37,473 bases of DNA from a virus. The stretch spans positions 1 through 37,473 of the IMG/VR virus record IMGVR_UViG_3300034190_002280, one strand, 5' to 3'. Positions 6,209-19,764 of the stretch are shown one piece after another (positions within the stretch are counted from its first letter, which is position 1; each line of letters opens with the position of its first letter). A program made the position numbers and the translations under genes. A model generated the notes under the pieces. It saw only the letters and a program-made list of their open reading frames with translations, did not search any database and had not been told where the DNA came from.

Positions 6209-6374
6209 TCTCTACTTGCCTATCTGACAAACTCGCCGCGTCTTTGGCGCGTTCCAGGCTGCTGTAACTGCAAGCATCGTCTGCTCTCTTGGTCCAGTAG
6301 ATGTCGCCTGAACCCATGTAGAGCGCAGAAACAAACAACGGCTCTGTCTGAGCCGCCTTGAGAGCAAAACGCAT
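6189..6374 (-). CDS. Hypothetical protein (61 aa), end of replication-strand unit
   Basis: ATG at 6374; starts MRFALKAAQTEPLFVSALY. Small, mixed charge, no transmembrane helix or recognised motif (contains GSGDIYWTKRADDACSYSSLERAKDAA). It is the last gene of the long minus-strand unit that starts with the primase at 12042 and is 8 nt from the stop of the RHH-like gene upstream. Its 3' end overlaps the convergent gene by 20 nt; no clear terminator is seen between the two units. Confidence 0.5.
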   Translation of the reverse strand: MRFALKAAQTEPLFVSALYMGSGDIYWTKRADDACSYSSLERAKDAASLSDRQVEIIPVLH

Positions 6375-6382
6375 GGAACGAT

Positions 6383-6634
6383 TTAATCGTTGTTTTGTTT
6401 GGTCCGGCCCTCAACCTGCTTACGGACGGACTGCCGCCATCGAGCAAGATCCTGGGCTTCGGCCTCGCTGTAAACGGTAGGCGAAGTAATGCGCTTCAAC
6501 TCCGAATACACAGCTTCTCTTATCCAAGCTGTCGCACGCTGCTTGTTCTTGGCAGCCTCTTGCTGAACCAGCTCTGCTCGATTGGGGTCAAGCAGGATCT
6601 GAAAGTACTGCTTATTGCCGTGCCGAATCGCCAT
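6383..6634 (-). CDS. Ribbon-helix-helix-like DNA-binding protein (83 aa)
   Basis: I use the ATG at 6634 (MAIRHGNKQYFQILLDP); an in-frame start at 6655 adds seven residues. The segment QYFQILLDPNRAELV-QQEAAKNKQRATAWIREAV fits a beta strand followed by two helices, as in Arc/MetJ/CopG proteins, and is followed by a charged tail. Inferred role: transcriptional repressor or antitoxin-like regulator. A second RHH-like protein lies upstream at 9133-9387. Confidence 0.55.
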   Translation of the reverse strand: MAIRHGNKQYFQILLDPNRAELVQQEAAKNKQRATAWIREAVYSELKRITSPTVYSEAEAQDLARWRQSVRKQVEGRTKQNND

Positions 6635-6658
6635 AACGTTTAATGTGCTACACACACA

Positions 6659-6835
6659 TTACCATGTGATAGAAGAATCGACCTTCTTTTTCCACGCATT
6701 GGCCTGAGCACGACGAGCTTGGGCGCGCTGATTCGTACAGCCCGCCCGCACTTCGCGTGCCCCCTCTAAGAACATCGCAGCTCGATGCAAATCACCCGTG
6801 GTTGCTGTCTGAATCGCTTTGTTTAGGCGCTCCAT
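6659..6835 (-). CDS. Hypothetical basic protein (58 aa)
   Basis: Start uncertain: ATG 6835 gives MERLNKAIQTATTGDLHRAA, while ATG 6862 adds nine residues; both overlap the 3' end of the upstream gene (6792-6950). The product is helical and Arg/Ala-rich (REVRAGCTNQRAQARRAQANAW), with no recognised domain. Its place in the coupled minus-strand block supports it being real. Confidence 0.45.
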   Translation of the reverse strand: MERLNKAIQTATTGDLHRAAMFLEGAREVRAGCTNQRAQARRAQANAWKKKVDSSITW

Positions 6836-6950
6836 CACGAGTTGCCTGCCTGTACGCGGCATCCATCGCCTCTCGGAAGTCTTGGTGGTACGTTATCGCC
6901 CCTCCAAAGTTTGAGTACCAGCCTTGATCAGTGCGATAGATGCTGATCAT
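6792..6950 (-). CDS. Hypothetical protein coupled to DNA polymerase (52 aa)
   Basis: ATG at 6950-6948 overlaps the DNA polymerase stop as TGATG, which argues for coupled translation. The product starts MISIYRTDQGWYSNFGG and continues AITYHQDFREAMDAAYRQA, then a polar tail; stop at 6794-6792. No known domain. It could be missed in annotation because of its size, but the exact stop-start overlap with polA is good evidence. Confidence 0.55.
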   Translation of the reverse strand: MISIYRTDQGWYSNFGGAITYHQDFREAMDAAYRQATRDGAPKQSDSDSNHG

Positions 6951-8773
6951 CAGTGGGTCTCCTGCCAGGTTTTGCCGAAAGACACCTCAGCCAAAGCAGG
7001 GATCTCGCCCAACCATTTGGCTTCTGCCTCTTCCATCACCTGTTTTAGGGTCGCCGCCCACTCTTCAGCTGCATCTTCCCTAACAAGCAACAGAATTTCG
7101 TCATGCACCGCAGCGGCAATACGCACCGTGTCTTCACCCGCTGCTTTGACCTTCGGCCAGAGGTTCCCCAAAGCGCACTTAAGGATGGCCGCACCAGCTC
7201 CCTGGATCGGCGTGTTGCACCTGACAGTCAGCCGATTCATGTCGCCCTGGAGATAGCGCCGCATTCCTGAAAGCGGGATCCTGGTCTCCGCCCACTTGTC
7301 GTACTTCGTCCGATCTGCGGCTGCAGCATTGTTCCGCTGCCACTCGGCCACCCCCTGGAACGCACCAAGCCATTCATCCCTGATCTCTGCTGCACGCTCT
7401 TGCGTCATGGTGATGCCCATACCGCCTGCGTAGTTACGCAGACCTGCGGGACCAGAGCCATACAGCAAACCAAAGTTAGCTGACTTTGCAGTCTGCCGAT
7501 CACAGCCGATGGCTTCTGCCGTAACGGTGTGCGGATCTTCCCCAGCCTGGAACGCAGCAATCATCCGCTCATCATTTGCGACTGCCGCAGCGAGGCGCAG
7601 CTCCATTTGACCGAAGTCCGCGTCAACCAGCAGCCAGCCTTCAGGCGCTTCAACGCAACTGCGAAACTGCTTGTCACGCGGGATCTGCTGGTTGTTGGGC
7701 TTGATGCAGGACATACGGCCTGACTCCGCCCCCAACTGCATGTAGCTGGCACGCACGAAGCCGGTGTCGTCCATCTTTTCCTGGATCGACTCGATCATTT
7801 GGCGGCGTTTTTCACACCTTTTCCACTCCAGGTAAATCTGAATAACTTCGTGATCTGCGGCGTAAGAACGCAGTGCCTGCCTGGACGCACTGGGCTTGCC
7901 ATTGGCATCACGAGGCGGCTCACCGCCCAGCAACACGGTGAGTTTTTCCACAAGCTGCTTTGGACTGTTGATGTTGAAGCCTGCGTATTTCTTGGTGCCG
8001 TCCCGCACTTTGCCCTCATCTTTAGCGCGCAGGTTGAAGCTGCCATCTTCATCACGCGGCAGCTTGTGCTCTTCAGGCATCGCAGCATCCAGCTGCAGCA
8101 CGAAGTCTTTGGCCAGACCCTTGATGTCGTGCTCGTAATCGATCTTGCGCTGCTGCAGGTTTTCGGCGTTCCAGGGCAGACCTGTGCGCCACATCTGCGC
8201 CATCGCGGGCAGCGCGCGGCACTCAAGCTTGAAAGCTGGTCCGAGCCTGTCGCGACTAATCCGGTGCTCCAAGATTGCGTCAAGCTCCATCAGAGCAGCA
8301 ACGTCGTTGGCCGCGTAATCCAGCTGTTCTTTACTGAGATCGCCGCCCCAGTTAGAGCGCTGCTGCTCTTTTGACAGCTCTTTTTTCAGGTAGCGCTTTA
8401 CAACGCTGTCGAGACCATGCTTCGTATTAGGCAGGCCATTGGTGAGAAGTCGGCTGGCCAACATGGAGCAACGGACCCACCCAGCCGGATAGATGTTGTG
8501 CTCCTGGAGCCAACCAAGGTCGAAGACAGCGTTATGGGCCAGCCAGAATCGGTTTGGAGAGCGGAAGAACTGGCGGAGATCAGCCCAGTCGCCTTTATCA
8601 AGCTGAAAACAGTCGATCAGAACGATAGTGTCGCGATCCCGCGCACCTAACTGCAAGAGCCGCAACCTGCCGCGCTCAGGCTGTAACTGGAGCGTTTCTG
8701 TGTCAAAGCAAAGGGACTGAGCTGTGCTGATCTTGCTCAGGTGCTCAATGCCCTGAAGAACTTGAGGAGACAT
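6950..8773 (-). CDS. polA: Family A DNA polymerase with 3'-5' exonuclease
   Basis: I use ATG 8773 (MSPQVLQGIEHL), giving 607 residues; an upstream GTG at 8806 adds 11. The exonuclease domain carries CFDTET (Asp24, Glu26), WLAHNAVFDLGWL and YAANDVAALMELD. Polymerase motif A is LLVDADFGQMELRLAA, motif B KSANFGLLYGSG, motif C AAVHDEILLLV. No 5'-3' exonuclease domain is present, as usual for phage PolA. The residue equivalent to E. coli Phe762 is Phe (K-S-A-N-F), a state usually linked to virulent phages in marine surveys. It replicates the phage genome with the primase-helicase at 9631-12042. The stop overlaps the start of a 52-aa gene. Confidence 0.95.
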   Translation of the reverse strand: MSPQVLQGIEHLSKISTAQSLCFDTETLQLQPERGRLRLLQLGARDRDTIVLIDCFQLDKGDWADLRQFFRSPNRFWLAHNAVFDLGWLQEHNIYPAGWVRCSMLASRLLTNGLPNTKHGLDSVVKRYLKKELSKEQQRSNWGGDLSKEQLDYAANDVAALMELDAILEHRISRDRLGPAFKLECRALPAMAQMWRTGLPWNAENLQQRKIDYEHDIKGLAKDFVLQLDAAMPEEHKLPRDEDGSFNLRAKDEGKVRDGTKKYAGFNINSPKQLVEKLTVLLGGEPPRDANGKPSASRQALRSYAADHEVIQIYLEWKRCEKRRQMIESIQEKMDDTGFVRASYMQLGAESGRMSCIKPNNQQIPRDKQFRSCVEAPEGWLLVDADFGQMELRLAAAVANDERMIAAFQAGEDPHTVTAEAIGCDRQTAKSANFGLLYGSGPAGLRNYAGGMGITMTQERAAEIRDEWLGAFQGVAEWQRNNAAAADRTKYDKWAETRIPLSGMRRYLQGDMNRLTVRCNTPIQGAGAAILKCALGNLWPKVKAAGEDTVRIAAAVHDEILLLVREDAAEEWAATLKQVMEEAEAKWLGEIPALAEVSFGKTWQETH

Positions 8774-8795
8774 GGGTGGTGTCGTTGACGCACAC

Positions 8796-8806
8796 CAATG
8801 TAGCAC
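8796..8806 (-). promoter_or_regulatory. Extended -10-like element TGTGCTACATT upstream of polA
   Basis: On the minus strand TGTGCTACATT reads as an extended -10 (TG-C-TACATT) about 25 nt before the chosen polA start. No convincing -35 is visible. It matches the element found at 12145-12153 and 17179-17189, which supports a shared promoter type, but overlap with an alternative GTG start leaves doubt. Confidence 0.35.
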
Positions 8807-8807
8807 A

Positions 8808-9071
8808 TCAAGAGCTTACAAGGCTTTCAATCAGCGGAAAATAATCCAGGTCATACGCCGTCATCACAGCCACATCAATCCCACAGTCCAGGGCAGCAGC
8901 CACCTGAACTTCAAAGTCCTGGTGCCCCATGCGGTTGTCCTGGTACGTGACCTGTTCGACAGCTAGGGCTCTGTCGTCGTTGTCGTAACTGGTAAAGCGC
9001 ACCAGGGCCAAAGCGTCTGCGCTAGCAGGCGATTCAACCTTGCAGTACTGGAATTGAACCTGGTGCGTCAT
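8808..9071 (-). CDS. Hypothetical protein (87 aa)
   Basis: The long ORF back to 9335 overlaps the RHH gene, so I use the ATG at 9071 (MTHQVQFQYCKVESPASAD). The product is acidic, probably alpha/beta (ALALVRFTSYDNDDRALAVEQ, QDFEVQVAAALDCGIDVAVM). No domain recognised. It lies directly upstream of the DNA polymerase in the replication unit; the gap between them holds a TGTGCTACATT element on the minus strand. Confidence 0.6.
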   Translation of the reverse strand: MTHQVQFQYCKVESPASADALALVRFTSYDNDDRALAVEQVTYQDNRMGHQDFEVQVAAALDCGIDVAVMTAYDLDYFPLIESLVSS

Positions 9072-9132
9072 GTTGGCTACTCGCCTGAAAGGAGTATGGC
9101 TCCGCTTGCGTATAAGCAACCGAACCAGTCGT

Positions 9133-9387
9133 TTAACTAGCCAATTCACTGAAAACAAACGCAACGATGCCTTCGACCTGACGCCGGTCCATTCCCTGAC
9201 CTGCCCTGCGGCGAGTGCGTTCCACCAAGCTGTGGTACTCCAAAGGCGAAAAAAGTTTGTCTGTTTTGACCGGGGTGCGAGTAACGCGGTCACGAAGCAA
9301 ATCAGAGCGCGAAATGCCCAGCTGATCCGCCTCAAGCTTCAGACGATCCGCATCAGCGTCGTCCACCGTGATTTCAATCCTTTTCAT
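9133..9387 (-). CDS. Ribbon-helix-helix (CopG/MetJ-like) regulator (84 aa)
   Basis: ATG 9387 gives MKRIEITVDDADADRLKLEA. The pattern is short strand (MKRIEITV), helix (DADADRLKLEADQLG), turn and second helix (SRSDLLRDRVTR), characteristic of RHH DNA-binding proteins. The C-terminal half is helical (YHSLVERTRRRAGQGMDRRQVE). Probably a dimeric repressor, perhaps acting on the replication unit. The start lies 3 nt beyond the stop of the upstream gene. Confidence 0.65.
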   Translation of the reverse strand: MKRIEITVDDADADRLKLEADQLGISRSDLLRDRVTRTPVKTDKLFSPLEYHSLVERTRRRAGQGMDRRQVEGIVAFVFSELAS

Positions 9388-9389
9388 GC

Positions 9390-9608
9390 TCAAAGGTATT
9401 CGTTGTAAAAGGCGCTGCCTGGTCCGTACTTAGCAACGATTTCTGGAAAAGCATCCAGAACGCGGTCGCGATTACGGGGGTCAGCGCTTAAAGCAGCCTC
9501 AGCAACTTTGCTGAGAAACGACCCACCGTAATGGTGGGCCGTCTTCACAGTGGCCTGGATCTGTTTTTCGGTCACAGCTCGGTAAACCCTATGCACAAAG
9601 TAGCACAT
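9390..9608 (-). CDS. Hypothetical protein (72 aa)
   Basis: I use ATG 9608 (MCYFVHRVYRAVTEKQIQA), since the upstream extension overlaps the primase-helicase gene. Helical, with QATVKTAHHYGGSFLSKVAEAALSADPRNRDRVLDAF as its core in residues about 17-53, ending in GPGSAFYNEYL. No recognised domain. It sits between the primase-helicase and the RHH regulator with gaps of about 20 and 3 nt. Confidence 0.55.
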   Translation of the reverse strand: MCYFVHRVYRAVTEKQIQATVKTAHHYGGSFLSKVAEAALSADPRNRDRVLDAFPEIVAKYGPGSAFYNEYL

Positions 9609-9630
9609 TGACAGGTCCTTGCCTAGTGGG

Positions 9631-12042
9631 TCAGTCCCACATATTCCAGTCATCCGCGCCAGGTTCGACACCCTTATGTCTCTGATTATCCGCGTTAAAA
9701 AGCGGATCCCTTGCGGCGGAAGGGTTCTTACCAACAATCGGTTTTGTTAAAAGTTCTGGTTTTGTTAAAAGTCCCTCGTCCGGACTTTTGACAATTTCGG
9801 ACTTTTGACAATCCACTTTGTTGTTTAGATCCGTTCCAGGGGAAGGGGTTTGATTTTTAACAGGGGGTTTCACGGACCTTTCACGCGCGCGAGAGGAAAA
9901 TGCACCTGGAACGTCTGTACCAACCGCTTCGTAGAAAGCAGGCGGCCGGCCCTTACCCGTCCAACTCGCCGGAGTAGCACACCGTTCGATCAGTTTCTGC
10001 CCCTCCAGCTTGTCCAGGCTGTACTTGATCGCGCGTTTCTTGTGGATGCCACCCAGCAGGTCGTGATCCACAAAGTCCTGGACCGTCCAAGGTGCGCGCG
10101 TGCGCCGCATCTCCTTGAGCATGTCCAGCATCTGCCGCGTCGGCCCATTCACTTTGTTCTCCTTCTCAGGCACCGGCCCGATCTGGTACGTGTAATCCGG
10201 CAGCAGGGAGAAGGCCATTTCCTGCCCTTCACGGTCATCGCGTGATTTCTCAACGGTCACGACCCTGGTGTTGTCGCTGAGGCTCAGCTCAGCCAGCTGC
10301 TTGTTGTCCAACCGCTGCATGTTCCACGTCTCATCCACAGCAGCCCTGATGGCGCTGGTGCCACGGAAGCTGCCGTTTCTGTTGTTGTGGTGAATCACGA
10401 TGATGGTGCAGGCCCCAAAATCCTCACCATTGCGCCGCGCAAGCTTCTTCAGGGGCAGCGCGTACTCCCTGCGGTTCTCCTCATAGGGGTTGGAGTCGTT
10501 GCATCCGTCCAGGCTGTCAATCACCACCAGGTCATAGTTCGGCGCTTCCTTTGGTCCCTGAAGCTTTTTGAAGCGGCTGTACCAGGACATGTCCCACTCA
10601 CCCACAACATCGACACCAGTGGTGACGCCGATCAGATCAAACTGACGCCGCACGATGCGCTCGCTCTGGTCTCCGTTCAACCAAAGGCAACGGCCTTTCG
10701 GCACATTGACCAAACCGCCGTGAACATTGAACGACCGCCCCTGGCTGATGTGCTTGCACAGCGTCTGACACATCGCTGACTTACCGGTGCCCCCATCCGC
10801 GTGAATCAGCAGCAACCAAGGTTTGGGCAGCAAGCCCGGAATCAAGTAATCGAACGATGCGTCGTCCAGCTCGCTCACAGCCCTGGGACGAAATTCCTTG
10901 TTCCGCTCAAACGTCAGGTGGGCGTCGAGCATCCGGTCAATCGCCGCTGCTCCTTCTTTGTGCCGCCCAGCCTCTTGGGCTAGCTGAGTTTTGGCCTGAT
11001 CAAGCAGCGCCGGGTTTTCGATGCTGTCCTCTAGCTCCAGCCCCCGCGCGATGACCTCTTCACCGCTGAGTAGGTCGAGCTTGTACTTGAGCGGGAGCGC
11101 TTCGATCTCCTCCACCAATCGTGCAAGACCGTCCCTTTGAAATCGTGTCCGCTCACGATCCACCAGATCGGCCTGACGAATCAACGAGCCGAAGCCCAGC
11201 CCACCGCTCCTGAAACCGTTCTGCCATCGCTCAGCGCAAGGGTTTTTACCGCCCTCCCAATCGTCGGCATACTCGTTATCGCGACGGCTCCACTCTTCCC
11301 ACAGCTTCAAGCCGTCCTCATTGGGCAGCTCGCTGTGGATCATTGCCCCGATTTCCCACCAGAACTGCTCGCTGTTTGCACCGCGAGGCTCAATAACACT
11401 CAGACAACTCCGAGCAATCTCGATCTTCTCCTCCCTGGAACGATTGGAGTACCGGCTGTCGCGAAGTTTGCGGCTGTCTTTCCGCTCATTCAGCTCGCGG
11501 TATTGCTCCCGCATCCGCTCCAACAACCATTCAGGAGCGGTGGGAATGTTGTTTACATCACCAGTAAAGGTGTACTCACCTTCATCTTTGTAAGCACCAA
11601 AAAGCAGACCCTGCCTGCCCCACAGCACTTCCCAGCCTTCATGCCCCGCAGCAGCGTGGCTGAGATCAGAAACAGTCAGGCGATCCTCTTCAGGAACAAC
11701 AAACAGAAACTTCGCCGCATTCTTTTTCGGTGAAGTAATCCGTGGAGCGTTCTCTAGATCCTTGCCCCACTTCTCTTCAATAGCCCCAAGGTTGGCGTCA
11801 ACGTCAAAGATGACGAGCCCTTCAGAGCGAGCGCCGCTGTAAACACCGACAGCCTTGAACTCCTCGGGATATTTTTCGATGTGCTGGGCCGTGAACTCAG
11901 GCGAGAGCTTTTCGTGAGGAGCGCGCCCCAGCGGAGACTTGCCGCAAGCTGCTTTGCCGTTGGGCATCTTCGCGCCCTTGGCGTAGATCGGCGCAGTGGC
12001 CCAATGCTTGGGCAGGCTGCGAACGAAACTGACGAGATCCAT
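9631..12042 (-). CDS. Primase-helicase: AEP prim-pol, PriCT-like and RepA-like ATPase domains
   Basis: An 803-residue protein. Residues 1 to about 180 fit an archaeo-eukaryotic-type primase/polymerase, with VIFDVDANLG (Asp80, Asp82) as the metal-binding pair and WEVLWGRQGLLFGAY after it. Residues about 205-292 fit a PriCT-2-like linker (FWWEIGAMIHSELPNEDG, WEEWSRRD, FGSLIRQAD). Residues about 400-640 are a RecA-fold AAA_25/RepA-like ATPase with Walker A HADGGTGKSAM (414-424) and Walker B LVVIDS (505-510), then IIVIHHNN. A winged-helix-like segment and a low-complexity tail follow. Predicted to unwind and prime DNA for the PolA at 6950-8773. It heads the minus-strand replication unit. Confidence 0.85.
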   Translation of the reverse strand: MDLVSFVRSLPKHWATAPIYAKGAKMPNGKAACGKSPLGRAPHEKLSPEFTAQHIEKYPEEFKAVGVYSGARSEGLVIFDVDANLGAIEEKWGKDLENAPRITSPKKNAAKFLFVVPEEDRLTVSDLSHAAAGHEGWEVLWGRQGLLFGAYKDEGEYTFTGDVNNIPTAPEWLLERMREQYRELNERKDSRKLRDSRYSNRSREEKIEIARSCLSVIEPRGANSEQFWWEIGAMIHSELPNEDGLKLWEEWSRRDNEYADDWEGGKNPCAERWQNGFRSGGLGFGSLIRQADLVDRERTRFQRDGLARLVEEIEALPLKYKLDLLSGEEVIARGLELEDSIENPALLDQAKTQLAQEAGRHKEGAAAIDRMLDAHLTFERNKEFRPRAVSELDDASFDYLIPGLLPKPWLLLIHADGGTGKSAMCQTLCKHISQGRSFNVHGGLVNVPKGRCLWLNGDQSERIVRRQFDLIGVTTGVDVVGEWDMSWYSRFKKLQGPKEAPNYDLVVIDSLDGCNDSNPYEENRREYALPLKKLARRNGEDFGACTIIVIHHNNRNGSFRGTSAIRAAVDETWNMQRLDNKQLAELSLSDNTRVVTVEKSRDDREGQEMAFSLLPDYTYQIGPVPEKENKVNGPTRQMLDMLKEMRRTRAPWTVQDFVDHDLLGGIHKKRAIKYSLDKLEGQKLIERCATPASWTGKGRPPAFYEAVGTDVPGAFSSRARERSVKPPVKNQTPSPGTDLNNKVDCQKSEIVKSPDEGLLTKPELLTKPIVGKNPSAARDPLFNADNQRHKGVEPGADDWNMWD
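9744..9811. repeat. Iteron-like inverted repeats in the primase 3' end
   Basis: TTGTTAAAAGT occurs at 9744-9754 and 9762-9772; its near inverse ACTTTTGACAA (one mismatch) occurs at 9784-9794 and 9801-9811. Two direct copies face two inverted copies around a centre near 9778, with starts spaced 18, 22 and 17 bp. The first pair encodes an in-frame LLTKPE/LLTKP repeat, but the second pair is spaced by 17 nt and so is out of phase with codons. Possible origin iterons or protein-binding sites; they could also fold as hairpins. Confidence 0.6.
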
Positions 12043-12043
12043 T

Positions 12044-12052
12044 TGCTACAGT
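12044..12052 (+). promoter_or_regulatory. Extended -10-like TGCTACAGT (+) near the primase start
   Basis: TGCTACAGT lies just beyond the primase start codon and points right. It is followed by a complete terminator at 12078-12111, so a transcript from it would be about 50-60 nt. No clear -35 is visible. It resembles the better promoter at 12126-12153. Confidence 0.35.
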
Positions 12053-12077
12053 GTGATCGTGGAATGTTTGACCATTG

Positions 12078-12111
12078 CCCCTGGGTGCTTCTCCGGCTCC
12101 CAGGGGTTTTT
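12078..12111 (+). terminator. Terminator hairpin between divergent primase and ssDNA-binding genes
   Basis: CCCCTGGG (12078-12085) pairs perfectly with CCCAGGGG (12099-12106) across a 13-nt loop and is followed by TTTTT (12107-12111). It works only in the + direction (no T-run on the other strand), yet no + strand gene lies upstream of it; the upstream neighbour is the primase gene on the other strand. It therefore ends either a short RNA, a leader, or antisense transcription. Confidence 0.7.
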
Positions 12112-12125
12112 CCATTCTATAGCAG

Positions 12126-12153
12126 TTGCAAACCCCCCACGCTTTGCTACATT
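12126..12153 (+). promoter_or_regulatory. Promoter of the ssDNA-binding protein gene
   Basis: TTGCAA (12126-12131, 4 of 6 match to TTGACA), 16-nt spacer, then an extended -10 TG-C-TACATT (12145-12153). It is 40 nt upstream of the ATG at 12193 and just after the terminator, so it probably drives the 194-aa gene. Confidence 0.6.
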
Positions 12154-12192
12154 GTTGAGGCACCGGGCAATGCGCCCACAGCAAAGGACCCC

Positions 12193-12777
12193 ATGGGCTT
12201 CATCTCATCCAAGAACAAGTCAGCCATTACTGCCGGTTCCGGCGGCGGCTACCTCAACCCCTCCAAGATTCAGAGCGGCGGCAGCGTCCGCTTCGCTCTC
12301 CTGGAAGATCAACCCCTTGAATTCTTCGAATGCTGGGGCGAGTCATCTGAAGGCGGCGTCAAGCCTTTCCGTTTCAGCGACGATCCCAGCCCTGAGGACA
12401 TCGACGAAGAAATGGGACCTGAGTTCACCCGTCGTATGAACCGCGAGGGCACCGCTCCCGAGAAGGTCAAGTTCGCCATCGCTGTGCCCGTATATAACTA
12501 CGAGTCCAGCAGCGTCCAGATCATGCAGCTATCCCAGAAGAGCCTGCAAAACGAACTGGACGACATCTCCCAAATGGAGGACTACGCCAACCTGTTGGAG
12601 TGGGACTTCGTTCTGGGCAAAGAAGGCAACGGTCTCGAAACTCGTTACAGCCTGCGCCCAGTGCCGCGTAAGAAAGGCACTCAGGACAGCATCGAATCCG
12701 CCTGGACCGATGCACGCGCCGCTGGCTTCGACATTGGCCGCCTGCTGACCGGCGAAAACCCATTCAAAGCCGAGTGA
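12193..12777 (+). CDS. Putative single-stranded DNA-binding protein (194 aa)
   Basis: ATG 12193 (MGFISSKNKSAITAGSGGGY); the ORF is open further upstream but crosses the promoter and terminator. The N-terminal third carries SGGSVRFALLEDQPLEFF and the aromatic KPFRFSDDPSPEDIDEE; the middle has strand-rich VKFAIAVPVYNYESSSVQIM and the later part WDFVLGKEGNGLETRYSL, which look like the basic and aromatic strands of an OB fold. I recall similar phage proteins annotated as ssDNA-binding. Position beside the primase-helicase and exonuclease supports a replication role. It is followed by a strong terminator. No Walker or nuclease motif is visible. Confidence 0.55.
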   Translation: MGFISSKNKSAITAGSGGGYLNPSKIQSGGSVRFALLEDQPLEFFECWGESSEGGVKPFRFSDDPSPEDIDEEMGPEFTRRMNREGTAPEKVKFAIAVPVYNYESSSVQIMQLSQKSLQNELDDISQMEDYANLLEWDFVLGKEGNGLETRYSLRPVPRKKGTQDSIESAWTDARAAGFDIGRLLTGENPFKAE

Positions 12778-12798
12778 CACAAACCGGCTACTGACTCG

Positions 12799-12827
12799 GG
12801 GGTACACCATGTGTGTACCCCTTTTTT
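12799..12827 (+). terminator. Strong Rho-independent terminator
   Basis: GGGGTACAC (12799-12807) pairs perfectly with GTGTACCCC (12813-12821) over a 5-nt loop, followed by six T (12822-12827). It closes the single-gene unit of the ssDNA-binding protein, 21 nt after its stop. Confidence 0.9.
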
Positions 12828-12851
12828 ATTGATTACTTCTCTCATTTGTTG

Positions 12852-12888
12852 CCCAAGATTTACCCTCTGTACCCAAGAGTGACCCTCT
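12852..12888. repeat. Tandem 17-bp direct repeat, possible operator
   Basis: CCCAAGATTTACCCTCT (12852-12868) and CCCAAGAGTGACCCTCT (12872-12888) differ at two positions and are spaced 20 bp apart, about two helical turns, as expected for a protein binding the same DNA face twice. They lie in the intergenic region between the terminator and the KilA-N gene, upstream of a TATAGT -10-like box at about 12960. A plausible operator for the KilA-N gene. Confidence 0.55.
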
Positions 12889-12987
12889 AGGGCTATCAAC
12901 AACCTTGGGACATTAGATCTTGGTAAGAATGTCATACAAGCTAAATCTCTGTGATAGAGGTATAGTTTGAGGACTGCGAGGAAGCCG

Positions 12988-13734
12988 ATGCACGGACACC
13001 TTCAAACCCGCTCCTGGAACGGAACCGCAATCCCCCGCCGCACCTCTGATGGCTACATAAACGCGACTGCTATGGCCAAAGCCAGCGGTAAGCAGTGGAA
13101 TAACTATTTTCAAACCGATCGCACTACCATCTACATGGAGGCTTTGTCAAGAAACCTGGGAATCCAGGTAACTTCCCTTTACACCGCCAAGCCTGGAGAG
13201 GGGACGTGGATTCACGAACGCTTGGCGGTGGATTTTGCTCGTTGGATTAGTGCTGATTTTGCGGTGTGGATGGACGCCTGGTTTTTGGAGGAGGTGAAGG
13301 GCCTATCTCAAGTGCAAAACACTCAGCCTGTTCTGGCTCCCACGGTGCTGGATACCGTTGATCGCAGCATCAATTTGCTGGAGCGTCTTGGCGGAGTAGA
13401 CGAGCGGGCTCAGATGTTGCTGCGTGATGTCGTGCTCAACACCGCAATGAAATCAGCGGGCGGCACTGCTCCCGCACTCGAACCCGCCAAAGAACTAACG
13501 CTTTCAGAAAAGTTGATCGAGCTGGGCTGTCCTTCGCATAAAGCAACCCCATTAGCCGCAAAAATCGGCAAGGAAATTAAGGGGTTGTACCGAAGAAAGA
13601 ACGGCAGGGAGCCCAAAAGCCAAGATCAGCTAGTTAATGGCCGTCGCTGTTCTGTTGCGCTTTATGAGAGGGACTTCTTGGCCTGGCTTGAATCCGATTT
13701 TCAGGAGTGTATTAAAGAGTTTTGCGCCTCGTAA
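12988..13734 (+). CDS. KilA-N domain protein (antirepressor-like)
   Basis: ATG 12988 (MHGHLQTRSWNGTAIPRR); an in-frame TTG at 12967 is possible. Residues about 15-105 form a KilA-N domain: RRTSDGYINATAMAKASGK, WNNYFQTDRT, and GTWIHERLAVDFARWISADFAVWMDAW. This domain binds DNA and occurs in phage antirepressors and large DNA viruses. The C-terminal region (ELTLSEKLIELGCPSH, LYRRKNGREPKSQDQLVNGR, YERDFLAWLESDF) is a second domain, perhaps binding DNA or a partner. In lytic phages the role is unclear; no repressor gene is visible. It starts the + strand unit with the exonuclease. Confidence 0.8.
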   Translation: MHGHLQTRSWNGTAIPRRTSDGYINATAMAKASGKQWNNYFQTDRTTIYMEALSRNLGIQVTSLYTAKPGEGTWIHERLAVDFARWISADFAVWMDAWFLEEVKGLSQVQNTQPVLAPTVLDTVDRSINLLERLGGVDERAQMLLRDVVLNTAMKSAGGTAPALEPAKELTLSEKLIELGCPSHKATPLAAKIGKEIKGLYRRKNGREPKSQDQLVNGRRCSVALYERDFLAWLESDFQECIKEFCAS

Positions 13735-13738
13735 AAGC

Positions 13739-13924
13739 ATGAGCGGTCACCTGGAGCGGGTCATGCCCGAAGTAGTCACAACAGTTCTCGAAGATGGCTG
13801 CATCTGCATTTCAGTGGGAGACTTCACTGGGGTGGTCAGTTCAATGCACCTAATCGAGCCCAAAGCTCATCAATTACAGAGTGCCTGGTTGGCACGTGAA
13901 GCCGAACTAGCTGATGCCCGCTGA
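13739..13924 (+). CDS. Hypothetical protein (61 aa)
   Basis: ATG 13739 lies 4 nt after the KilA-N stop; starts MSGHLERVMPEVVTTVLEDG. Beta-rich N-terminal half (CICISVGDFTGVVSSMHLIE) and a helical tail. No domain recognised. Its last 11 nt overlap the exonuclease start at 13914, so all genes from 12988 to 14896 look like one unit. Confidence 0.6.
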   Translation: MSGHLERVMPEVVTTVLEDGCICISVGDFTGVVSSMHLIEPKAHQLQSAWLAREAELADAR

Positions 13925-14714
13925 TACACAAAACGCCCTCGCCGGACTCCGCCGCTGGAGCCTGGTCCGTGATGACTCCGGCCCGCACCGCGTTTATCGC
14001 GACGAACTAGGCAACACCTACGCCTCAGTCACCCACATCCTCAAGGAAACCTCACCGCAATGGCAAAAAGATGCTCTTGATCGATGGATTCAAAAACCAG
14101 GATCTGCCCTGGAGCGTGATATTGCCTGCCAGCGCGGGACTCTGGCTCACGATCACGCGGAGTACGTCCTCAAAACAGCAGCGAAACTCGCGCGTAATAG
14201 CGCTAACAAGCGAGGAAGCTGGAGGACTGGAGATGACGGCCTGGAACGTGCCCCCAAGGGAATCACTACCTGGGCCATCGAAAAAGCCATTCAGGGGGCT
14301 CCTAGGGTCTCCTGGAGCGCCTCTGGCTACGCCCGAGGTCTACGGACTTGGATCGGAGAGAACGTAACCGCCATTCACGCCATCGAGTTCTCCGTGCATG
14401 ACCCACGAGGCTGGGCTGGAACGGCTGACGCTTTGCTGGACGTAGACGGCGCGTTATGTATTGCGGACTGGAAAACCAGCGTGAATGCACGTAGCGAGGA
14501 CATGCTGGCTAATTACATCTGCCAGGCTGGAGCGTATTCGCTGGGACTCCAGACCCTGACTGGGATCAAGCCAAAGACCGGAGCCATTGTGGTGGCACGC
14601 CGCAGCGGAGCACCGCAAGTGCGCTTGCTTAGTGAGTTAGAATTACGTGGGGCGGAGTGTCAATGGCTAGAGAGAATGGATATATGGAACGCTCAGCAAG
14701 CTCTCAAGAACTAG
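13914..14714 (+). CDS. PD-(D/E)XK exonuclease (RecB/lambda-exo-like)
   Basis: 266 residues with the family's signature: RGTLAHDHAEYVL (74-86), Glu158 in HAIEFSV, GWAGTADALLDVDG (167-179), the core IADWKTS with Asp185 and Lys187, and YICQAGAYSLG (201-211) as the Q-x-x-x-Y motif. These fit the Cas4/RecB/lambda-exonuclease group, which digest DNA ends for recombination or recycle nucleotides from host DNA. No Cys ligands for an Fe-S cluster are evident, so it is not Cas4-like in that respect. No recombinase partner (Beta/RecT) is recognised nearby. The gene carries an unusually dense set of TGGARCG motifs in all three frames. Confidence 0.85.
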   Translation: MPADTQNALAGLRRWSLVRDDSGPHRVYRDELGNTYASVTHILKETSPQWQKDALDRWIQKPGSALERDIACQRGTLAHDHAEYVLKTAAKLARNSANKRGSWRTGDDGLERAPKGITTWAIEKAIQGAPRVSWSASGYARGLRTWIGENVTAIHAIEFSVHDPRGWAGTADALLDVDGALCIADWKTSVNARSEDMLANYICQAGAYSLGLQTLTGIKPKTGAIVVARRSGAPQVRLLSELELRGAECQWLERMDIWNAQQALKN

Positions 14715-14896
14715 AAGAAGCCCTAGACCGTCTCTACAAAGGGACTACCAATGTGGCGCTACAGGCTGCGGATCTAGGGATAAGCCTGGAACGTTTGAAG
14801 CAGCTGTTCCGCGAGTACGTCGCCGCCAGGCCCATCGACATCAACGATGAAGACGTATGGCTAGGCGATACCACCATGTGTTGGCCGTATGCCTAG
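14663..14896 (+). CDS. Putative small helix-turn-helix protein (77 aa)
   Basis: Starts at ATG 14663 (MARENGYMERSASS) or 14684 (MERSASSQELEEAL); both overlap the exonuclease 3' end. The stretch TNVALQAADLGISLERLKQLF fits a helix-turn-helix of the resolvase or sigma type. The tail (DEDVWLGDTTMCWPYA) is acidic. A regulatory role is inferred from the HTH pattern only. It ends the + strand unit and faces the minus-strand block. Confidence 0.55.
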   Translation: MARENGYMERSASSQELEEALDRLYKGTTNVALQAADLGISLERLKQLFREYVAARPIDINDEDVWLGDTTMCWPYA

Positions 14897-14907
14897 CCCT
14901 GGAACGT

Positions 14908-15204
14908 TCAGGGATAGATCCGCGACACGTCGTCTTGGAAGTCGATGTCACGCTTACCGCGTAGGAACTCACCGCCGCCAACCATGCCCCCAACAATGGG
15001 AAGGTTCCTAGTACCCCAGGAGTTGAGATCCCCTGGTCCGTACTTTCTCCTGGCACGTGTCACGGCTTCATTGAGGGACGCCGCCAACGTTTGACAGCGC
15101 ATGATGCCCAACATGTTTGATCTATAGGTGAGATACACGAGTCTCACCTCTTGGGGTTGCCACGAGGGCTTGGCGTTTGCCTGGAGCGTTTCAAGCTTGG
15201 TCAT
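14908..15204 (-). CDS. Hypothetical protein (98 aa)
   Basis: ATG 15204 overlaps the upstream stop (ATGA). Starts MTKLETLQANAKPSWQPQE; soluble, basic, with CQTLAASLNEAVTRARRKYG and a Gly-rich turn (GTRNLPIVGGMVGGGEFLRG). No domain recognised. Last gene of the eight-gene minus-strand block; it ends 12 nt from the convergent + strand gene. Confidence 0.6.
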   Translation of the reverse strand: MTKLETLQANAKPSWQPQEVRLVYLTYRSNMLGIMRCQTLAASLNEAVTRARRKYGPGDLNSWGTRNLPIVGGMVGGGEFLRGKRDIDFQDDVSRIYP

Positions 15205-15497
15205 ACGAGGTCTGCCCGTTCTTTGTAGTACCCGGAAGAATCCAAGTAGTTGTGGATGCGGTCTTGGATTGCCTGGAGCGTTTTAGATCGTGGCGTGTCT
15301 TGCCACTGTGCACGACCTAAGAACTCCATCTCCCAAAACACAGAGTCTGCTAACAGGGCTAGTTCGTGGTCTGTGAAGGTGATTTTGTTCATACGGCGAA
15401 CTCGTTTGAGCCACTCTCGTTGTTGTTCAGGGGTGGGACGTGGGTCGTCCGGCTGGTTCGCCAGAAACCCACGTGCTGTGTCAGATAGGAAGGCCAT
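15201..15497 (-). CDS. Hypothetical protein (98 aa)
   Basis: I use ATG 15497, which overlaps the upstream stop (TGATG), instead of the ORF start at 15515. Helical, starts MAFLSDTARGFLANQPDDP, with EQQREWLKRVRRMNKITF and HELALLADSVFWEMEFLG. No domain recognised. Coupled on both sides. Confidence 0.6.
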   Translation of the reverse strand: MAFLSDTARGFLANQPDDPRPTPEQQREWLKRVRRMNKITFTDHELALLADSVFWEMEFLGRAQWQDTPRSKTLQAIQDRIHNYLDSSGYYKERADLV

Positions 15498-15811
15498 CAG
15501 TCTGTGAAGTGCCAAATAGGCTTGGGAAGCTGCTCCAGGTATTTGATGAGTCCCTGGAACGTGATTGGGTACGGGGCGTCATGCTCGGTGTGGACGAAGC
15601 AGTCTTCCTCGCTGTAAATCATCACGATGGATTTCTGTCCGTACTGCTCCCATAGCTGGATCAGGATGTGCGGTTCTGGGCCGCCGGGGCTTGGAGCCTC
15701 TGGAACGGGACCCGCAGCCCATCCAGGGATTACGGAGTCGAAGGCATCCAACTGCTCTGCAAGATGCAGAAGGGTTGGAGCGTATTTAGCGGTGAGGTCG
15801 GAGCAGCTCAT
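15497..15811 (-). CDS. Hypothetical protein (104 aa)
   Basis: ATG 15811 overlaps the stop of the 48-aa gene (ATGA). Starts MSCSDLTAKYAPTLLHLAE; Pro-rich centre (PVPEAPSPGGPEP), then ILIQLWEQYGQKSIVMIYSEEDCF. Soluble alpha/beta with no recognised motif. Part of the coupled minus-strand block. Confidence 0.6.
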   Translation of the reverse strand: MSCSDLTAKYAPTLLHLAEQLDAFDSVIPGWAAGPVPEAPSPGGPEPHILIQLWEQYGQKSIVMIYSEEDCFVHTEHDAPYPITFQGLIKYLEQLPKPIWHFTD

Positions 15812-15954
15812 TTGAGGTTCGGATTACGGTCAGCAGGGGTTGGGATGGAGCGTTCCCAGTCGTCTTGCTCCTGTTCGATCTGCATCTCCTCTAGTTCCTC
15901 TTCGGTGTAAAGCTCGAAGGGGAGTGGAGCGTCGTCGATGTCGGGGTAGTTCAT
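15808..15954 (-). CDS. Small very acidic protein (48 aa)
   Basis: ATG 15954 overlaps the stop of the TerS-like gene (ATGA), so I reject the longer start at 16029. Starts MNYPDIDDAPLPFELYTEE, continues ELEEMQIEQEQDDWE. Strongly acidic, which could mimic DNA or bind a basic protein; this is only suggested by composition, a feature shared by several small phage inhibitors of host enzymes. Confidence 0.55.
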   Translation of the reverse strand: MNYPDIDDAPLPFELYTEEELEEMQIEQEQDDWERSIPTPADRNPNLK

Positions 15955-16307
15955 GCGAAGGGTGAAACGGATTGCGTGTTGTAGCCCTGCCATTTTTTGG
16001 CGGTGTCCATGGCCTTGATGAGCTGGCACGTTTGCTTGTCATCGCCGGTCGCAATGGCGATCTCTAAGCGGTGCTGAAGCATTGCCAGCACTCCCGCAGG
16101 GTTGCAGGGTTCCATCTCTTCGAAGGCTGGGCCGTCGTCGGATTGTTGGATCTCCTGCTCTGCTGCGGTGATGTCTGTGTAGGCCGTGGAGCGTGAAACG
16201 AAGTAGCGCGCGCTTAAAAGCGTTGCGACTGAAGCCACGGGGATGCCGCGTTCAAGCATCGCCCGCGCGTAGCTAAGGCGATGCTGGATTTCTGCCTGGG
16301 ACGCCAT
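15951..16307 (-). CDS. TerS-like helix-turn-helix protein (118 aa)
   Basis: I use ATG 16307, overlapping the upstream stop as TGATG. N-terminal region MASQAEIQHRLSYARAMLE, then SARYFVSRSTAYTDITAAE, and a C-terminal helical part LQHRLEIAIATGDDKQTCQ. The order and spacing of R-[YF]-x-V-S-x-x-T-A-x-x-D, followed by a Leu-rich helical pair, parallel the TerS candidate at 17275-17715 (SRFNVSLRTAHDDY). It may therefore be a second TerS-type DNA-binding protein or a regulator from the same fold. Its setting among small coupled genes, on the opposite strand to TerL, argues against it being the working packaging subunit. Confidence 0.5.
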   Translation of the reverse strand: MASQAEIQHRLSYARAMLERGIPVASVATLLSARYFVSRSTAYTDITAAEQEIQQSDDGPAFEEMEPCNPAGVLAMLQHRLEIAIATGDDKQTCQLIKAMDTAKKWQGYNTQSVSPFA

Positions 16308-16585
16308 CACTTAAGCCCCGAAGTTTCGGTGTACTCCAGACCCATCGCGCCAGCGAAGCGCTGCAATAGTTCGATGTCTTCCCTGGAGCGATAACCGGAC
16401 TCGTGAAGGCTGGCGATGAAATCGACAACAGCGTTAGAGATGATGCCAGGCTCAGGGCTGATCTGGACCGTTGTTTTTTCGGTGGCTTCCCAATCACTGT
16501 GTCCGGTGATGAGATGCCGCGTGATTGTGACGCGGGGAACGTCGGCGAAGGTGTGGAGCTTTTCGGTTTGTGCGGAATAGTTCAT
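16307..16585 (-). CDS. Hypothetical protein (92 aa)
   Basis: ATG 16585, starts MNYSAQTEKLHTFADVPRV; N-terminal beta-rich part (VTITRHLITGHSDWEATEK) and a helical C-terminal part (VVDFIASLHESGYRSREDI). No domain recognised. A 34-nt gap separates it from the upstream gene, the largest gap in this block. Confidence 0.6.
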   Translation of the reverse strand: MNYSAQTEKLHTFADVPRVTITRHLITGHSDWEATEKTTVQISPEPGIISNAVVDFIASLHESGYRSREDIELLQRFAGAMGLEYTETSGLK

Positions 16586-17209: not shown

Positions 17210-17274
17210 GTGTTAGCGCCTAGCTAGTTCCCTTGGGCCGGTTAGTATCAGGGAAGGTCTACGAATGCCAGCCC

Positions 17275-17715
17275 GTGGCTGATAACAACACTGAAGAAAA
17301 GAAGACCAGCGTCGCTGATGATGAGTCGAAGCGGTGGCGCAAGGGCAAAGGCGCAGCCCATCGCGTAGAGGAGAGGGCACAGGCTGCTTATGCCTACATT
17401 TTGGAAGGTGGCACGAGAATTCAGATTGCCGAAAAAATCGTTTCTCGGTTCAATGTCTCTTTACGCACTGCTCACGACGACTACAAGCGCGCAATGCAGC
17501 TTCTGCGTGAGGAGCAGACGGGAACGCGCGAGGAATTGTTGAACCAATTACAGGCTCTTCGCCTCGCAACGGTTCAGAAGGCGCTGAAGCGCGGCCACTT
17601 CCAGACCGTTGCGACACTGCTAGGCGATATGGGCCGCGTGATTGGCGAGGCAGCGCCGGAGCAACTAGCGCTACAGGTTCCCACTCTCGACATTCGCATC
17701 GAAGGCAAGGACTAG
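17275..17715 (+). CDS. Terminase small subunit (putative)
   Basis: I choose GTG 17275 (reads MADNNTEEKKTSVADDES); a TTG at 17233 is possible. After a charged N-terminus, residues about 30-75 fit a helix-turn-helix (AAYAYILEGGTRIQIAEKI, SRFNVSLRTAHDDYKRAM), followed by long helices for oligomerisation (EELLNQLQALRLATVQKAL, RGHFQTVATLLGDMGRVIG). This matches the layout of TerS proteins that bind pac or cos DNA and hand it to TerL. The TerL gene lies 790 nt downstream across a repeat-rich region, which may contain the packaging site. Confidence 0.65.
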   Translation: MADNNTEEKKTSVADDESKRWRKGKGAAHRVEERAQAAYAYILEGGTRIQIAEKIVSRFNVSLRTAHDDYKRAMQLLREEQTGTREELLNQLQALRLATVQKALKRGHFQTVATLLGDMGRVIGEAAPEQLALQVPTLDIRIEGKD

Positions 17716-17796
17716 GCCCATTCAAGGGCCATTCATGGGAAGGGTTTTCTATGCCTGCCTGCCTGGAGCGTCTTACCCCTTCTCCATAGGTACTGA

Positions 17797-17948
17797 TGTA
17801 CTATAACATTTTTGCCGAAAAGTTTCCGCAAAAAATATTTTTTGAAAATAAATTGTCGAGGTTCGATATTATAATACACGTGTACTATAATATTTAGTAA
17901 GCAAATATTCCTTACTAAGTATTACAATACGTATGTACTATAATATTT
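17797..17948 (+). repeat. TGTACTATAAT direct repeats with palindromes
   Basis: Two 28-bp direct repeats (17868-17895 and 17921-17948) match at 24 positions and share TGTACTATAATATTT; a third partial copy (17797-17813) reads TGTACTATAAC. A perfect 8-bp inverted repeat, TTAGTAAG (17894-17901) and CTTACTAA (17911-17918), sits between the long copies, and a 14-bp palindrome (A6-T-A-T6) spans 17830-17843. TATAAT boxes make them promoter-like, but no good -35 is seen. Possible early or middle promoters, operator array, origin or packaging region. Confidence 0.7.
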
Positions 17949-17961
17949 TGGGTACAAAAAT

Positions 17962-17992
17962 ACCCCACAGAGTGTAGTTAACTCTGTAGGGT
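17962..17992 (-). terminator. Terminator of the small minus-strand membrane gene
   Basis: ACAGAGT (17967-17973) pairs with ACTCTGT (17981-17987), extended by ACCC (17962-17965) with GGGT (17989-17992) beyond one mismatch. On the minus strand the stem is followed by TATTTTTGT, a T-rich tail; on the + strand there is no T-run of note. It lies 12 nt beyond the stop at 18004, so it probably ends the 61-aa gene. Confidence 0.65.
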
Positions 17993-18003
17993 GTTTGTGT
18001 TAC

Positions 18004-18189
18004 TCAGCGACCGTAAATAATTAGTGCACATTCGTCTGCAGATGTTTTCTCACGTTGTACACATTCGCGAAAAGTTTCAGCGTCTTCGACTGCAAAAACT
18101 AGAGCAAATGTTGCACAGGCAGCGAGTAAACAAGAGCAGACAGAAACGACAACTAAAGTATCAGAAACTGGGGAAGAATTGTTGGACAT
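18004..18189 (-). CDS. Small single-pass membrane protein (61 aa), tentative
   Basis: ATG 18189 (MSNNSSPVSDTLVVV); an in-frame start at 18255 overlaps a TATAAT box. Residues about 11-34 form one transmembrane helix (TLVVVSVCSCLLAACATFALVFAV), followed by a charged 27-residue tail with two Cys. It is the only plausible gene in the 17716-18507 region, with a TATAAT box upstream (about 18247-18252, minus strand) and a terminator downstream. An opposite-strand ORF at 18024-18212 is Lys/Arg/Gln-rich and looks like its shadow. Confidence 0.5.
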   Translation of the reverse strand: MSNNSSPVSDTLVVVSVCSCLLAACATFALVFAVEDAETFRECVQREKTSADECALIIYGR

Positions 18190-18507
18190 TTGTGTTAGTA
18201 ACTCTTGGGTGAAGTTAGTGACAACAACTGTGTTGCTGCTAAATATATTATACACAGAAATCTGCAGTGCTACAGTTTACTGTGCCACTTCCGCAGCTGT
18301 CACACGCTCCGAAAATTCTGATTTTTCGCGAAATTTTTTAGTAAATCTGTACTACTGTGTGCGGTCAGCACACTGGCACAGGGGGTGGGGTTGCAACCAG
18401 TACGGCTGTACTACAAGCGCGGGGAACTTACTGATACATCTGAGATTATTTGATTGTACTACACCCACCCGGGGGTAGGGGTTGAAAAAGCAGTTAATGT
18501 AATACCC
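18190..18507. other. Non-coding region upstream of TerL with TGTACTAC repeats
   Basis: No convincing gene. It holds three more + oriented TGTACTA copies (18348-18354, 18407-18413, 18455-18461, each followed by C), a TTTCGCGAAA palindrome (18324-18333), and a GC-rich imperfect inverted repeat just before the TerL start (CACCCACCC then GGGGTAGGGG, about 18463-18483). The region is distinctly AT-rich at 17800-17960 and GC-rich at 18380-18480. Candidate regulatory or packaging-initiation region; no cos or pac consensus is recognised. Confidence 0.5.
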
Positions 18508-19764
18508 ATGGCCGTACAAAATGCACCCCCACTTAGTCTCCGCTGGGCACAGGGGCAAGTATTCACCGACGAACACAGATTCCGCGTCCTAGTTGCAGGC
18601 CGCCGTTTCGGAAAGTCATACCTTTCCTGCGTCGAACTTTTGCGTGGAGCGATCAATAACCCCGGCGAAACCTTCTTCTACTGCGCCCCCACCTACCGGA
18701 TGGCGAAAGATATTGCCTGGAAAGTGCTCAAAAAGCTCGTTCCAAAGCCTTGGATCAAAACTAAGAACGAAACCGACCTGAAATTAGAGCTAGTCAACGG
18801 CTCAACCATCGAATTAAAGGGCACAGAGAACGCAATGGCCCTTCGTGGCCGCAGTTTGTCCGGCGTCGTGCTCGACGAAGCCGCATTTATGGACGCCGAG
18901 GTCTGGTTTGAGGTCATCCGACCCGCCTTGGCCGACAAACAAGGCTGGGCGTTGTTCATTTCGACCCCGGATGGAACGGCCAGCTGGTTCTATGACCTTT
19001 GGTGCTACTGCGAAGATGACCCAACCAACGAATGGAAGCGCTGGTGTTACACCACCATCGAAGGCGGAAACGTCCCAGCCGACGAAGTTGAGGCAGCCCG
19101 CGCTCAACTTGACCCGCGCACGTTCCGCCAGGAATTCGAAGCGTCGTTCGAGAACCTCACCGGCCTCGTAGCCATCAGCTTCTCCGACGACAACATCTCC
19201 ACCGACGCCAAAGACATCTCTATCCAGCCCCTTCTCCTGGGCGTGGACTTCAACGTGGACCCCATGAGCGGCATATGCGCCGTAAAAGACAAAGACACCC
19301 TCTACGTCTTTGACGAAATCATGCTCACAGGCGGCGCAACCACCTGGGACTTCGCAGAAGAAGTCACCCGCCGCTACGGCGTAGACCGCCGCGTCATCGC
19401 CTGCCCCGACCCCACGGGTGGAGCGCGCAAAACCAGCGGCGTCGGCGTCACCGACCACGCAATCCTCCGCCGCAGCGGCTTCACCGTCCAATCACCCCGC
19501 TCTCCCTGGAAAATCCGCGACAAAATCACCGCGATCAACACTGGCCTGATGGACGCATCCGGCGCTCGCCGCGTAAAAATCCACCCCCGCTGCAAAGAGC
19601 TAATCAAATCCCTACGCACCCTCACCTACGCCCCTGGAACGGGCCTACCTAACAAAAATCTTGGGGTAGACCACGCTTTCGACGCCTTCGGGTATCTTGT
19701 GCTGCAGCAGTTCAACTTGGCCAAGCCTGAGGCCATGGGAACTACGTCATACCGCCTGTATTAA
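18508..19764 (+). CDS. terL: Terminase large subunit
   Basis: I use ATG 18508 (MAVQNAPPLSLRWAQGQ), 418 residues, near the typical length. Walker A AGRRFGKS (30-37), Walker B VVLDE (120-124, catalytic Glu124), coupling motif FISTPDG (150-156). The RNase-H-like nuclease has GVDFNVDP (Asp247), YVFDE (Asp269/Glu270), DPTG (Asp301) and the final LGVDHAFDAFGY (Asp388, Asp392). It pumps DNA into the prohead at the portal (21720-23171) and cuts concatemers. It heads the long structural unit; the GC-rich inverted repeat lies right before it. Confidence 0.95.
   Translation: MAVQNAPPLSLRWAQGQVFTDEHRFRVLVAGRRFGKSYLSCVELLRGAINNPGETFFYCAPTYRMAKDIAWKVLKKLVPKPWIKTKNETDLKLELVNGSTIELKGTENAMALRGRSLSGVVLDEAAFMDAEVWFEVIRPALADKQGWALFISTPDGTASWFYDLWCYCEDDPTNEWKRWCYTTIEGGNVPADEVEAARAQLDPRTFRQEFEASFENLTGLVAISFSDDNISTDAKDISIQPLLLGVDFNVDPMSGICAVKDKDTLYVFDEIMLTGGATTWDFAEEVTRRYGVDRRVIACPDPTGGARKTSGVGVTDHAILRRSGFTVQSPRSPWKIRDKITAINTGLMDASGARRVKIHPRCKELIKSLRTLTYAPGTGLPNKNLGVDHAFDAFGYLVLQQFNLAKPEAMGTTSYRLY

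Follow-up and report, generated by a model that had tools for sequence, protein, structure and literature searches.

Background

Octamer-like words that are oriented, strand-biased and irregularly spaced, namely the FtsK-orienting polar sequences (KOPS) and architecture-imparting sequences, are known from bacterial chromosomes. Phage genomes can carry polar words as well: lambda red gam mutants and phage P1 accumulate the Chi of Escherichia coli, and in lambda chi mutants and P1 the Chi sites are oriented relative to the packaging end. The RecBCD-type Chi words include GCTGGTGG in E. coli and GCTGGCGC in Pseudomonas syringae (PMC5959072), and lambda exonuclease is slowed at the pause motif GGCGA near the left cos (Perkins et al. 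2003, reviewed in PMC7496540). Here we describe a word, with the family consensus YTGGARCG, in an uncultured virus of IMG/VR (record IMGVR_UViG_3300034190_002280, positions 1 to 37,473; these 37,473 nt are the window referred to throughout) and in its relatives. It is short, non-palindromic, oriented and over-represented beyond codon usage. Our preferred reading, to which we assign a probability of about 0.4, is that the word is a Chi-like polar signal specific to this phage lineage, which is read by the phage's own recombination module or on its behalf and controls resection from an end near terS/terL. A literature search on the motif, which covered open-access papers and could not reach those under subscription, found no paper.

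Results

A preliminary description of this DNA had reported a motif without spelling it, and its coordinates match the 7-mer TGGARCG; low-GC relatives additionally use TGGATCG. The whole window contains 63 copies of TGGARCG on the + strand and 20 on the - strand, against 5.9 + copies expected from order-1 simulation (maximum 16 in 300 runs). As had been described, 18 + copies and no inverse copy are found in about 2.6 kb (13752-16390), and their spacing is irregular and not tandem, ranging from 70 to 358 bp. The fullest 2.64-kb stretch of the windows simulated at order 1 held at most 5 copies, and with 63 copies placed uniformly, 18 would fall in one such stretch at P = 5e-5. The word is also sharply defined: by counts in 17 related records, a change at T0, G1, G2, C5 or G6 lowers the number of copies at least 5-fold and up to approximately 36-fold, position 3 is partly tolerant of other bases, position 4 is A or G and partly T, and roughly three of every four copies are preceded by C or T.

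This abundance was compared with a codon null in which synonymous codons were shuffled within genomes, genes being called by script as the longest open reading frames (ORFs). Because the records are metagenomic and mutually related, counts across them are not independent, and non-redundant sets were used only where stated. In 20 records, 563 + copies were found in + genes vs 116 under the codon null (approximately 5-fold), and 231 in - genes vs 23 (approximately 10-fold), while the non-coding DNA of the same records held 132 + vs 41 - copies; the word is used in every reading frame and on both strands. Ranked by order-1 z-score, the first 7-mer of almost every motif-positive record is TGGAACG or TGGAGCG, and the relatives in which the word is top or near top span 33% to 57% GC. 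Among aligned relatives (65-97% identity), + copies are retained letter for letter at 1.4 to 3 times the rate of control 7-mers, and the extra copies were gained through substitution in 382 cases vs 43 with gaps. Words that differ from the motif by a single step are rare, and the flanks of the copies share nothing beyond the pyrimidine preference at -1. That the word is under selection is well supported. Correcting for composition or codons does not bring its density over the genome down to background, and the recent spread of a mobile short element, one of the possibilities raised in the preliminary description, is contradicted by the substitution gains, the rare neighbours and a polarity common to phages of 33-57% GC. 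A turning point of the cumulative GC skew, which had also been proposed as something to look for near the peak, was not clearly present: the mean skew of the relatives stays positive over almost the entire circle and has no turning point, and that of the window is mixed. At 6001-13500 the window's skew is negative and the motif still +, therefore the motif does not simply follow the skew.

The 18 copies of TGGARCG at 13752-16390, all on the + strand, are listed below with the number of aligned relatives that keep them, where available; exo is the exonuclease gene. The codon readings given for 15182, 15274, 15701, 15776, 16187 and 16384 are those reported previously and agree with the translations, whereas the copies at 15846 and 15925, also given readings at the time, sit in an ORF of less than 80 aa that was outside that check.

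13752-13758, +, TGGAGCG
14110-14116, +, TGGAGCG in exo, Leu-Glu-Arg; kept in 33/45
14242-14248, +, TGGAACG in exo, Leu-Glu-Arg; kept in 39/48
14313-14319, +, TGGAGCG in exo; kept in 30/47
14417-14423, +, TGGAACG in exo; kept in 42/45
14528-14534, +, TGGAGCG in exo; kept in 21/37
14685-14691, +, TGGAACG at the 3' end of exo; kept in 2/26
14787-14793, +, TGGAACG in the small ORF after exo; kept in 24/25
14900-14906, +, TGGAACG between convergent genes
15182-15188, +, TGGAGCG antisense in a - strand gene, Thr-Leu-Gln
15274-15280, +, TGGAGCG antisense in a - strand gene, Thr-Leu-Gln
15555-15561, +, TGGAACG antisense in a - strand gene
15701-15707, +, TGGAACG antisense in a - strand gene, Val-Pro
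15776-15782, +, TGGAGCG antisense in a - strand gene, Ala-Pro
15846-15852, +, TGGAGCG; kept in 8/8
15925-15931, +, TGGAGCG; kept in 6/8
16187-16193, +, TGGAGCG antisense in a - strand gene, Arg-Ser; kept in 6/8
16384-16390, +, TGGAGCG antisense in a - strand gene, Arg-Ser; kept in 5/8

The genes against which the motif has to be read are the following, the fractions being motif-rich relatives that have the gene.

9631-12042, -, fusion of PrimPol (PriCT-2) and AAA helicase; 21/21
11881-12777, +, ORF with an SSB-like protein, which is likely shorter (true start downstream); 21/21
12967-13734, +, KilA-N domain regulator
13914-14714, +, exo, predicted stand-alone RecB-family PD-(D/E)XK nuclease, MGME1-like (PHROG 298, PF12705, and PDB MGME1 by sequence and fold); 21/21
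14908-16585, -, block of small genes, function unassigned by family, crossed by + motifs
17233-17715, +, probable TerS-like gene, named from its position; divergent homologues precede terL
18454-19764, +, terL; + motif density collapses just past it, and low-GC relatives change orientation here

The peak at exo recurs in the relatives. In those of at least 42% GC, anchored on terL, the + density (TGGADCG) is 4-5/kb at 2-4 kb to the left of terL, and 599 + vs 15 - copies lie between -5 and -2 kb; the low-GC relatives have 267 + vs 2 - copies of TGGADCG from -7 to -2 kb. With the low-GC phages anchored on exo, this gene has 4.29/kb on the + and 0.00/kb on the - strand, and the 120 copies inside it, many of which encode Leu-Glu-Arg, compare with 13.3 under the codon null. 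Just right of terL the + density is 0.04/kb; it climbs gradually along the tail genes and on around the circle until the peak at exo is reached again. In the head genes the codon null is exceeded 4-6-fold by - copies and roughly matched by + copies, and in the low-GC phages - copies roughly equal or outnumber + copies from just upstream of terL onward. From the orientations on both flanks, the copies therefore tend to face the terS/terL region, which is the arrangement expected of Chi sites flanking a break. In the preliminary description the zone was proposed to mark an origin, entry or loading zone, which is supported in part: the + peak is indeed real, conserved and anchored on exo, with a collapse or flip at terL, but neither an origin nor a clear skew turning point was found, and an end-processing (Chi-like) signal explains its geometry no less well. 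Many low-GC exo phages also have two conserved - copies near the PolA/PrimPol junction (at 9998 and 10124 in L568, for example), the sole strong - cluster left of exo in these phages.

The occurrence of the word follows the early module. Exo, the PrimPol-helicase and the SSB-like protein occur in each of the 21 motif-rich relatives compared, and PolA in 11 of them. A phage with TerL 79% and portal 75% identical, which bears an ERF-family protein (recognised by eye from sequence) and lacks exo, PrimPol and SSB, contains 6 + and 5 - copies and shows no polar enrichment. Against the codon null, nine non-redundant low-GC ERF loci have no excess (+ 6 vs 3.6, - 7 vs 4.1), whereas 30 low-GC exo loci have + 252 vs 39.5 and - 124 vs 37, and the ERF relatives, with TerL 79-80% identical, have the same GC as the exo relatives compared. 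We found no contig with both exo and ERF. In a small number of prim-positive loci no exo was detected; these loci, for the most part on short or truncated contigs, have the motif all the same. In the relative G170, TerL is only about 25% identical, yet the motif and the exo peak are present. The ERF contrast and G170 therefore disfavour the terminase and host identity as the cause. The module-swapped phages indeed lack the word, so that the outcome regarded beforehand as adverse, the same bases in relatives otherwise without the motif, did not occur. In G392 contig C13 (L364, L290, L289) and L376-L392, the head genes are the same, TerL is 79-80% identical and the early module is replaced: exo, PrimPol and PolA are absent, and an ERF-like protein and another PD-(D/E)XK-like nuclease occupy their place; this gene content points to a natural module swap.

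The hosts are probably marine picocyanobacteria, because the PHROG 564 protein of the window has matches in marine Synechococcus and Prochlorococcus phages, besides marine virus records, and because portal relatives (69-75% identity) occur in 2 of the 400 Cyanobiaceae-type family genomes searched, one of the two loci being a phage contig that is also present as a virus record. RecB, RecC and RecD homologues are encoded in the host genomes, mostly below curated cut-offs and full length in most genomes searched. TGGARCG was not enriched in samples of three Cyanobiaceae genomes (G010, G032 and G026), its sense and antisense copies being near or below the codon null (137 vs 132 and 67 vs 56; 58 vs 66 and 30 vs 39; 39 vs 53 and 18 vs 31), while E. 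coli Chi, used as positive control on 100 kb with the identical method, gave 19 vs 6.8 and 7 vs 1.9. No consistent leading-strand bias of TGGARCG was observed in the hosts; a 34:10 ratio in one low-GC host, considered as a KOPS-like bias, shrank to 53:33 (rank 121 of 840) with doubled data. GCTGGTG was above the codon null in all three host samples, and is on this ground a better candidate than TGGARCG for the Chi of picocyanobacterial RecBCD. Among other cyanophages, S-CBS3, KBS-S-2A, P-SS2, P-SSP7, S-TIM5, S-2L and an Oinezvirus had no clear excess of the word over the codon null.

Besides PolA, the PrimPol-helicase and the exonuclease, the window encodes lambda-like tail genes, the portal, terL and three small proteins (PHROGs 848, 650 and 564). 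The assignment of exo as a stand-alone RecB-family nuclease derives from a sequence match to human MGME1 (E about 1e-7) and from an AlphaFold2 model (mean predicted local distance difference test, pLDDT, of 90) whose best fold match is MGME1, followed by RecE and then by the nuclease domains of AdnAB and AddAB. Megablast of 13.7-25.0 kb against isolate phages gave no match, and no RNA families or tRNAs were found in the window. A non-coding stretch of 740 bp (17716-18453) separates the terS-like gene from terL and includes, at 17791-17972, three TGTACTATAATATTT-like repeats and a palindrome, resembling tandem promoters or an iteron cluster. This TGTACTATAATATT repeat cluster was considered as a conserved origin and rejected, similar repeats being present in G166 and absent from most relatives. 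At 4490-5239 lies a C39-like cysteine peptidase gene (PF13529) that is 90-95% identical in several relatives with far more divergent neighbouring genes, and the PHROG 564 protein (3519-4010) has counterparts with 68-71% identity in two large cyanophages, S-TIM5 and S-TIM54, which suggests exchange between unrelated cyanophage types.

Discussion

The motif and its polarity, the selection acting on it, the conserved peak, the lack of host enrichment and the link to the module are well supported. A Chi-like resection signal fits the polarity regardless of gene strand, the maximum left of terL, the scarcity of inverse copies there, the flip at terL, the resemblance to Chi and the absence of the word where an ERF module replaces that of exo. 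We envisage that a double-strand end made near terS/terL, likely the packaging cut, would be the entry point of an end-processing enzyme, which would travel leftward and reach the + copies, densest over exo, from their 3' side; at these copies it would stop or alter its degradation, leaving recombinogenic DNA. The cut position, the travel direction, the reader and the biochemical effect are what we infer. Since the motif follows the module and neither the host genome nor TerL, the reader most likely belongs to the phage early module (RecB-family exo, PrimPol-helicase and SSB) or depends on it. It is possible, and we propose it tentatively, that the lineage owns its Chi system, the word being invariant over 33-57% GC, read by a phage RecB-family nuclease/helicase module and lost when ERF replaces it.

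Several points weigh against this reading. The search for cos by a pile-up of contig ends gave no signal: the ends are spread with no accumulation at one place, and for that reason the cut near terS/terL is an assumption. Copies on the - strand are also 2-4 times the codon null in several regions. As exo, PrimPol and SSB co-occur, the reader is not separable among them, and the ERF contrast may reflect merely one or two module swaps. MGME1-like nucleases act on single-stranded DNA, and we know of no sequence-specific arrest of such enzymes; nor, to our knowledge, is there a precedent for a phage-owned Chi, the known Chi sites being host signals read by RecBCD or AddAB.

The word could instead be the Chi of the picocyanobacterial host, gathered by phages that have no ERF/Red-type system and use host RecBCD. 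The hosts do have the three subunits' homologues, the word shares a TGG/CTGG core with RecBCD-type Chi, exo phages carry it and ERF phages do not, and its orientation around terS/terL is compatible with the Chi rule. However, it fails in all three host samples the test that E. coli Chi passes, it has no consistent leading-strand bias, GCTGGTG is the better host candidate, and other cyanophages are not enriched; since the word is not in use in the host genomes, we favour a phage-encoded reader and consider host RecBCD unlikely. It is quite unlikely, too, that the copies are priming or helicase-assembly sites of the PrimPol-helicase on the strand that templates lagging-strand synthesis, in a largely unidirectional, rolling-circle-like replication whose start zone is the peak. 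The presence of this enzyme in 21/21 motif-rich relatives, the single orientation round most of the circle and the positive mean skew would agree with it, but the primase sites known so far are shorter, such sites ought to be evenly spaced instead of crowding at exo and nearly vanishing from the head genes, PrimPol identity is as low as 34-40% in most divergent relatives with the word unchanged, the motif stays + where the window's skew is negative (6-13.5 kb), and the flip at terL would require a terminus there. Rather improbable is the binding of another directional protein of the module, such as the KilA-N protein, the product of the small ORF that follows exo, or a factor for DNA condensation or segregation: the KilA-N gene and the conserved small ORF flank exo and the motif follows the module, yet simple binding sites need no common polarity over 40 kb, and we know of no KilA-N, small-ORF or condensing/segregation protein that is read in such a polar way.

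A packaging signal (pac or cos) read by the terminase would account for the shift of density and orientation at terL. It is nevertheless very improbable, given the dozens of copies genome-wide and the fact that the word does not go with the terminase, being absent from ERF-module phages with a closely similar TerL and present in G170 with a very different one; TerS, itself divergent, might still have a role in reading the word. An origin of the word as a side effect of codon usage, of the amino acids encoded or of GC skew, or as a mobile short repeat, may seem attractive from the Leu-Glu-Arg copies in exo and the G-rich + strand of the relatives on average, but it is refuted by codon nulls exceeded 5-10-fold, most of all in antisense genes, by the rare single-step neighbours and substitution gains, and by the low-GC genomes that also carry the word, which leaves it extremely improbable.

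Oriented recombination and processing signals are known from cells, and here one selected polar word marks a group of marine cyanophages. Should phage proteins prove to be its reader, the virus would own a Chi system, and the word together with the small module would offer a direct assay of DNA protection and recombination in phages that have no Red/ERF annealing protein; if it is host Chi after all, it would be the first lead to Chi in Prochlorococcus and Synechococcus known to us.

Like the RecBCD-type Chi words, the phage word is short, non-palindromic and oriented, has a TGG core, is spread through coding DNA whatever the gene strand, tends to face the presumed DNA end and follows the recombination system in use. 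Unlike them, it is known here from sequence alone, is not enriched in the presumed hosts, is confined to one phage lineage and tied to a phage module, and at one copy per approximately 145 bp at its peak is far denser than Chi in bacterial genomes. The lambda chi mutants and P1 also differ, for the word they carry is the Chi of their host, and the host genomes examined here do not use YTGGARCG. With KOPS the phage word shares an oriented, strand-biased, irregularly spaced and octamer-like character, although it occupies a genome of about 40 kb, peaks at one gene and shows no symmetric origin/terminus pattern. The pause site of lambda exonuclease is another word for another nuclease subfamily and lies by cos, as opposed to the genome-wide polar set described here; however, it likewise pairs a phage nuclease with a strand-specific sequence near the genome end, and is thus a precedent for a phage nuclease slowed by sequence.

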